This document shows, one piece after another, positions 52,619 to 62,188 of a stretch of 64,000 nt of DNA; position 1 is the stretch's first letter; every line of letters starts with the position of its first letter. The notes under the pieces were generated by a model. The model ran no database searches and had not been told where the DNA came from. It was given only the letters and a program-made list of their open reading frames with translations. The DNA is from Clostridiales bacterium. GTDB lineage: Bacteria; Bacillota; Clostridia; Oscillospirales; CAG-272. A program made the translations under genes and the position numbers. The DNA lies in the NCBI GenBank assembly GCA_021202555.1, contig JAJQCT010000032.1, positions 1-64,000 of the forward strand, in the 5' to 3' direction.

Positions 52619-52649
52619 TTGAATAATGAATCGCAGATTCATTATTCAA
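52619..52649. repeat. 14-bp-arm palindrome TTGAATAATGAATC-gca-GATTCATTATTCAA
   Basis: Same arms as at 62158-62188. Confidence 0.95.
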
Positions 52650-56139: not shown

Positions 56140-57054
56140 ATGTCTGAAAAGCTCAAAAATATTAACGTAAAGGCGATAACGGGAGAGGTACTTTACATTA
56201 TCCTCGGCTCCGTGCTTTACGGTCTTGCAATCGATATGTTCCTGACCCCGTCGGGAACCGTCATGGGAGGCGCTACAGGTATCGCGACGCTTCTGAATAT
56301 CCTATTTGACCTGCCTACAGGTACCGTAATCCTTATAATCAATATCCCGATACTTCTCGTCGCGTGGAAAATATACGGCATCGGCATGATTTCCCACACG
56401 ATAATAGCCGTCGCGGCGACCTCGGTAACGACCGACCTTCTCGATTTGCTCTTTTCCGCCGGTATTCTTCCCGTCCCCGAAATTGATCCGCTTTTCTCCG
56501 CCATATGCGGCGGCGCGCTTCTCGGAGCGGCGGCAGGACTTCTTCTTTCGCGCGGCTACACGACGGGAGGGAGCGACCTTACGTCCGTCATGCTGAAGCG
56601 CAAAATCAAGCGGCTTTCAACGGGAAATATCATATTCATTCTCGACCTTATCATAATCGGCGGCTCGGCGATTGTGCGCTTCATTTTCACCGAGGATGCG
56701 ACATTCGCGACACTCATTACGGGTGTGCTTTATTCCATCGTCGCGGTGTACGTTTATTCATTCGCGCTCGATACCGTTGTCGGTGGTACGAAAACGTCGA
56801 AGATGGCTATTATCGTCTCGGACAAGTACGACGATGTTGCTGACGGGATTTTCCAAGACCTCGCCCGCGGCGTGACGATTCTGCACGGGCTCGGCTGGTA
56901 TTCCGGGCAGGAGAAAAACGTGATTATGTGCGTCGTGAAGCGCGGCGAGCTGTTCATCCTGAAATCAACGGTGATGAGAACAGACGACAAAGCGTTCATG
57001 ATTCTCCTTGATGCGAAAGACGTTCTCGGTCACGGATTCGGACAAATTGAGTAA
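56140..57054 (+). CDS. YitT-family membrane protein (DUF161/DUF2179)
   Basis: GSVLYGLAIDMFLTPSGTVMGGATGIATLLN, C-terminal DUF2179 SDKYDDVADGIFQDLARGVTILHGLGWYSGQEKNVIMCVVKRGEL. Confidence 0.93.
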   Translation: MSEKLKNINVKAITGEVLYIILGSVLYGLAIDMFLTPSGTVMGGATGIATLLNILFDLPTGTVILIINIPILLVAWKIYGIGMISHTIIAVAATSVTTDLLDLLFSAGILPVPEIDPLFSAICGGALLGAAAGLLLSRGYTTGGSDLTSVMLKRKIKRLSTGNIIFILDLIIIGGSAIVRFIFTEDATFATLITGVLYSIVAVYVYSFALDTVVGGTKTSKMAIIVSDKYDDVADGIFQDLARGVTILHGLGWYSGQEKNVIMCVVKRGELFILKSTVMRTDDKAFMILLDAKDVLGHGFGQIE

Positions 57055-57083
57055 TTGCGCTTTATTTTTGTCATGAAGCTTCA

Positions 57084-57146
57084 GCCTTCATGATCCTTCT
57101 TGACGCAAAAGACGTTCTCGGTCACGGATTTGGACAAATCGAGTGA
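57084..57146 (+). pseudogene. Duplicate remnant of the yitT 3' end (AFMILLDAKDVLGHGFGQIE*)
   Basis: 21 codons incl. stop encode the same peptide as 56992-57054 with only synonymous changes. Confidence 0.92.
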
Positions 57147-57150
57147 AATC

Positions 57151-57381
57151 GCTTCAAACGCTTTCGCGTTTGAAGCGGATAAATCGCCGCTTCGCGGTGG
57201 TGAAATCCATCTTGCGCCTACAGCGCAAGATGGGTGAAATCCGTCGCTAGCGCGACGGGTTAATGATAGCACTTGAAAGCTTTTGCTTTCAAGTGCTAAT
57301 TTTATTGAATGGATTTCCGAAGGAAAGCCCTCTAAAACCACAGTTTCTCAAAGTGCACTGCGCTTTGAGAAACTGTGGTTT
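57151..57381. repeat. Array of five to six perfect hairpins, several separated by TGAAATC(C)-like spacers
   Basis: Stems at 57151-57176 (11 bp), 57187-57197 (4 bp), 57207-57233 (11 bp), 57241-57258 (7 bp), 57267-57298 (14 bp), 57335-57381 (19 bp). Confidence 0.92.
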
Positions 57382-57440
57382 CACCATCCCGTCTCCATCG
57401 TCATATACTGATAAAAAAGCAAATGACGGAGGCATAACAC

Positions 57441-57905
57441 ATGGACGACGGCATAATGCATGACGGGAGCGGCAAGCTCGATAACGCGCCTGACGGCTAC
57501 ACCGAAACGGGCTATCTTATAGTAAACACATACACGGCGCGGGGAGCGATTCCCGTCGAGGGGTCGCTTGTCACCGTATTTTTCGGCGACGCGGCGATGA
57601 CATCGCCCGAAGCGGTGCTGACAACTGACGAAAGCGGCAAAACGGCAAAGCTTTCGCTCCCCGCGCCGCCGAAAAGCACCTCGCTCATTCCGGGCGGGGG
57701 CGAGGGGACGCCGCCCTACGGCATATACAATATTTCGATAATACACGAGGGCTTCATTCCCGTGTACGACATCGGCGTGAAGATTTTCTCGGGCGTGACG
57801 GCGATTCAGAGCGCCGACCTCATCCCCGAAATTCAGTCCTTCCCGCCCGATAACATAATTGACGACACCGATTATGTAGACGAAACGGGGGATTACAATC
57901 TGTGA
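57441..57905 (+). CDS. Hypothetical protein of a PG-binding gene cluster (carboxypeptidase-regulatory-like beta fold)
   Basis: GYLIVNTYTARGAIPVEGSLVTVFFGD... ; overlaps the next start (GTGA). Confidence 0.75.
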   Translation: MDDGIMHDGSGKLDNAPDGYTETGYLIVNTYTARGAIPVEGSLVTVFFGDAAMTSPEAVLTTDESGKTAKLSLPAPPKSTSLIPGGGEGTPPYGIYNISIIHEGFIPVYDIGVKIFSGVTAIQSADLIPEIQSFPPDNIIDDTDYVDETGDYNL

Positions 57906-62157: not shown

Positions 62158-62188
62158 TTGAATAATGAATCTGTGATTCATTATTCAA
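62158..62188. repeat. 14-bp-arm palindrome TTGAATAATGAATC-tgt-GATTCATTATTCAA
   Basis: Same arms as 52619-52649, different loop. Confidence 0.95.

Follow-up and report, generated by a model that had tools for sequence, protein, structure and literature searches.

A silently diverged duplicate of the 3' end of a yitT-like gene next to a Gut-1-like hairpin string

A yitT-like gene in the 64-kb window (the whole stretch of DNA analyzed here, part of a 170-kb contig) is followed by a second copy of its own 3' end, which raises the question of how an intact gene came to be trailed by a stub that encodes the same peptide in different codons. The gene (56140..57054, plus strand) encodes a protein of 304 aa, in which a Pfam scan detected the domains YitT_membrane (PF02588) and DUF2179 (PF10035), and it terminates in TAA. 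It is located after the enolase gene and before a gene at 57441, an order that is the same in the nearest congener, G007. The host draft genome comprises 1.97 Mb in 40 contigs and is 97.8% complete, with an estimated contamination of 0.14%.

The final 20 codons of the intact gene and its TAA (copy 1, 56992..57054, plus strand) recur on the same strand as 20 codons followed by TGA at 57084..57146 (copy 2, or the stub), and both copies encode the peptide AFMILLDAKDVLGHGFGQIE*. These are the only two sites in the genome where AFMILLDAKDVLGHGFGQIE is encoded, and a perfect match over 20 residues is not a product of chance. With a direct-repeat finder, the repeat pair was delimited as 72 nt at 85% identity (56991-57062 and 57083-57154) with a spacing of 92 nt. 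Because the stub is in a reading frame different from that of yitT, it does not form a fusion with the gene. The two copies are separated by a spacer of 29 nt (57055..57083, plus strand), which runs from the stop codon of copy 1 to the stub, has no counterpart in G007 and ends in the junction. There, an 8-bp inverted repeat (57071..57093; TCATGAAG-cttcagc-CTTCATGA) straddles the start of the stub. An earlier sequence-only reading of this DNA had drawn attention to this inverted repeat, which is real but constitutes weak evidence, since about 2% of 53-nt stretches drawn at random from the window contain one as good. Template switching via the junction hairpin was set aside on the same ground.

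The duplicate was claimed in that reading to differ only synonymously, at eight positions, and this description is exact: the two copies differ at seven third codon positions and in TAA versus TGA, and all eight differences are silent. A random single change in the duplicated stretch is silent with a probability of 0.21-0.28, depending on ts/tv, so that eight silent changes out of eight would be expected under drift with a probability of approximately 4e-6 to 4e-5 by multiplication (order 1e-5); in a drift simulation, the pattern was obtained 0 times in 60,000 for each ts/tv setting. This result indicates that copy 2 diverged as the end of a working gene. Judged by their codons, both copies diverged while they were the ends of working genes, in agreement with the protein-level selection that had been proposed for the second copy. 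With dN = 0 and dS of about 0.95 (NG86; a rough value, as it comes from 63 nt only), the pair has the appearance of two alleles of one locus that diverged under selection. The copies match each other at 55/63 nucleotides and match G007 at 45/63 and 46/63, and being nearer to each other than to G007, they separated after the split from that genome. Identity to G007 is approximately 74% at the nucleotide level, the yitT proteins share 77% amino acid identity, and the divergence of yitT from G007 is nothing unusual next to that of the following gene.

A full second yitT matching the stub was looked for in the 98%-complete genome and was not found, indicating that the stub is not a complete second gene that the assembly broke. 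Ten congeners have no stub behind yitT; they comprise G007, at the syntenic place between enolase and the 57441 gene, and nine further genomes with a single yitT end each. None of the ten thus carries two copies, identical or not, and the relatives with identical copies that would have pointed to a recent duplication were not encountered. G007 lacks the hairpin string described below at this place as well. A search of genome contigs for a donor or sister allele returned only a G007-like contig (76% identity) and one match of 31%, and no donor yitT allele was present in viral contigs; the whole-genome collections searched hold one genome per species.

The stub had also been described as lying between hairpins, correctly, and we found that the hairpins on its right form a Gut-1-like string. 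This half of a hairpin-string element (57142..57310, plus strand) begins with AGTGAAATC, which contains the TGA of the stub, and consists of hairpins at 57150-57177, ~57186-57199, 57207-57233, ~57240-57257 and 57267-57298, with the joints GATAAATC, GTGAAATCC and GTTAATGA between string hairpins. The region 57050-57400 has a fold z-score of -11.9, and a separate long hairpin (57335..57381) precedes the next gene. Gut-1 RNA (RF01706) was described as three consecutive short hairpins joined by GUGAAAU spacers (PMC2864571). The segment 57141-57245 aligns to the whole model (1-77), with one joint reading GATAAAT, at a score of 33.7 bits, which is under the gathering cut-off of 50, and all Gut-1-like scores in this genome are below that cut-off (33.7-45.3 bits). 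The string family appears recognizable as a sub-threshold Gut-1 RNA: it resembles Gut-1 in its strings of short hairpins with GUGAAAU-type spacers, whereas the low scores, the longer stems and the use of GATAAATC at some joints set it apart.

Searches for string patterns, run on 391 genomes from the class and on IMG/VR, yielded only chance matches outside this genome, because the stems vary, and the string copies of relatives were found with the Rfam model instead. In these relatives, Gut-1 RNA appears to form a single arm of a hairpin-string element present in many copies, with up to 61 matches per genome, and plus and minus matches often face each other within approximately 110 nt. In about 11 of 16 loci examined, the string stands immediately behind a tRNA or tmRNA gene, mostly after a terminator-like hairpin. 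In the present genome, the strings follow the ends of protein genes.

We surveyed roughly 1,050 ORF ends in approximately 1.33 Mb of this genome for further stubs. Only yitT has an identical repeat of its end in a downstream stub, and a single other 3'-end stub was detected, at an aprA/aprB-like junction. The aprA-like gene (C36:148854-150824, minus strand) lies on the same contig as the window but outside it. Its last ~17 codons recur together with the first codons of the aprB-like gene, in diverged form, from 26 nt past the stop, and the copies show both silent and non-silent differences. The junction is present in one copy in G007. The duplicate region (C36:148588-148900) adjoins a gap of 100 N that has an identical 54-nt word on either side, and the case reflects either a scar like that at yitT or strains mixed during assembly. 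A search for other 3'-end stubs beside hairpin arrays had been proposed in the sequence-only reading; the aprA-like stub has no string. Comparable stubs were not seen in approximately 389 kb of congeners, nor in 400 kb from a complete genome belonging to the same order. The remaining survey matches were dropped as neighboring paralogues, repeat proteins, CRISPR repeats or a palindromic repeat that supplies a gene's last codons. As a separate observation, the palindrome ATCGGTCAAAAAGTATACTTTTTGACCGAT recurs at C23:1135-1764 and C36:75009-75226, its core also being present at C36:75040-75069 and 75200-75226; the C23 copy supplies the last codons (SVKKYTF) and the stop of a gene.

The explanation that we favor, at a probability of about 0.55, is that the stub is the scar of a one-sided exchange of alleles, in which one yitT carried a string and the other did not, with a homologous junction on one side and an illegitimate join on the other. 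Copy 2 would then have been the terminal part of another allele of yitT rather than of another gene. In one lineage, yitT would have ended in GAG TGA and run directly into the AGTGAAATC edge of a Gut-1-like string, and in the other, a string-free yitT would have ended in GAG TAA. A transfer of DNA would have brought the alleles together, and either may have been the resident one. On one side, the exchange would have proceeded through ordinary homology; on the other, string and string-free DNA would have been mismatched, and an illegitimate join may have formed about 20 codons before the old stop. The outcome would be an intact gene with 29 nt of its own trailer, followed by the displaced old end with its string. 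The string is found on copy 2 only, which places the difference between the alleles at the very point where an exchange by homology would break down. Replacement of most of yitT by a diverged homologue that left the old 3' end behind had been among the origins proposed from the sequence, and it is this origin that our explanation adopts, the replacement itself being somewhat more likely than not. The aprA/aprB-like case lends support, as it has the same shape, with a diverged duplicate 26 nt past the stop; that it touches an N gap counts against it. The ordinary divergence of yitT from G007 also speaks against this explanation. The genome encodes a ComEC-family protein, but this family matches non-competent controls such as E. 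coli as well.

Homology-facilitated illegitimate recombination has been described in competent bacteria and was proposed for the displaced 3' ends at the T6SS and Rhs loci of V. cholerae (PMC5361080). As in those orphan ends, a new gene end lies upstream at yitT and a displaced old 3' end lies behind it. The Rhs and T6SS orphan ends, however, belong to different toxins or immunity genes and may be kept by selection (PMC5361080), whereas the yitT stub encodes an identical protein segment of 20 codons with no apparent use. Insertion with long target duplication, known for restriction-modification genes, likewise duplicates part of a gene at the edge of the inserted segment; the term is used in PMC3031569 and PMC1643837. 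The yitT copies differ from that arrangement in being 29 nt apart, with no inserted gene, and in being diverged rather than identical. The yitT stub is new as an instance but known in kind, and does not represent a new system. If the favored explanation holds, the stub preserves a legible trace of allele exchange at a membrane gene of housekeeping type in an uncultured lineage, and testing whether all changes are silent would tell such scars from ordinary tandem duplications. Stubs are rare in this genome (two in ~1.33 Mb, including the one at an assembly gap); if frequent, they could gauge how often exchange between related strains ends illegitimately.

An unlikely alternative is that the stub is what remains of a tandem paralogue, produced by duplication of the full yitT, silent divergence of two functional copies and deletion of the second except for its last 20 codons. 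The same silent divergence would be predicted, and genomes often contain several YitT-family paralogues. However, none of 58 genomes searched has two intact yitT genes in tandem at this place or elsewhere, as judged by the match table. Within the genus, paralogues share 24-30% identity with the query, compared with 100% for the stub protein, and dN of exactly 0 with dS near 1 suits orthologous alleles better than paralogues in one cell.

We consider it a little less likely still that the assembly stitched together in tandem two versions of this 3' end from different strains mixed in the metagenome. Two alleles of one gene would show just such silent differences, and the genome is a draft with N gaps, of which the one at the aprA-like stub is flanked by the repeated 54-nt word in the manner of overlapping de Bruijn contigs; this proposal keeps its weight because of that gap. 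At yitT itself, however, there is no N gap, and the longest exact word common to the copies is 23 nt, which is too short for a 55-mer graph. A jump through a common word would yield a mosaic rather than a tandem copy plus a new 29-nt spacer, and the contamination estimate of 0.14% also argues against it.

Far less probable is a mobile hairpin-string element that targets the 3' ends of genes for insertion and leaves them duplicated or restored. Some integrative elements do insert at the 3' end of a gene and restore it, and the silent-variant gene end beside yitT resembles their product, as the sequence-only reading had suggested. The resemblance ends there, since the yitT copies are only 29 nt apart with no gene between them, so that neither copy is the restored end of an integrative element, and no integrase or transposase is encoded in between. 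Further strings with the same joints are located at C28:147682 (behind thrS), C36:90934 and C36:123928, and the right half of a string occurs alone at C28:107608; the full strings are symmetric, with the terminal sequence GATTTCACT. Strings start right behind gene stops, as a mobile element of this type would, but no end duplicate comparable to that of yitT accompanies those after thrS and the C36:90934 gene. The end of thrS is unduplicated whether the string is present, as in this genome, or absent, as in G007 and two further congeners where thrS ends without it. With three other strings following gene ends without a comparable duplicate, the string itself does not make stubs; strings attach to gene ends, generally without duplicating them. 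A copy made by insertion would moreover begin identical, without the eight silent changes, and the aprA-like case has no string. What speaks for mobility is the string at C36:123928, where the string edge carries a small direct repeat (GAGCAGTAA/GAGCAGTGA) of the gene's last codons and the gene end CAATATGAGCAGTAATGCTCATATTGAGCAGTGAAATC (C36:123870-123940) contains an 11-bp inverted repeat over the stop, with TGA for TAA in the repeat.

Had the duplication arisen recently by slippage, with the stub drifting neutrally afterwards, the tandem arrangement and the 92-nt spacing would be accounted for, but the silent pattern (8/8, near 1e-5 under drift) in practice refutes this origin, as the copies are neither identical nor differing regardless of codon position.

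An extension of the favored explanation, which we regard as improbable, is that Gut-1-like strings joined to the 3' ends of genes present barriers of heterology at which allele exchange regularly fails, leaving diverged stubs. If this were true, 3'-end stubs would be a general and countable scar of gene flow in genomes. Another dispersed family of intergenic hairpins, TTGAATAATGAATC...GATTCATTATTCAA, is found in the window at 52619-52649 and 62158-62188, in L093, and in tandem on C28.
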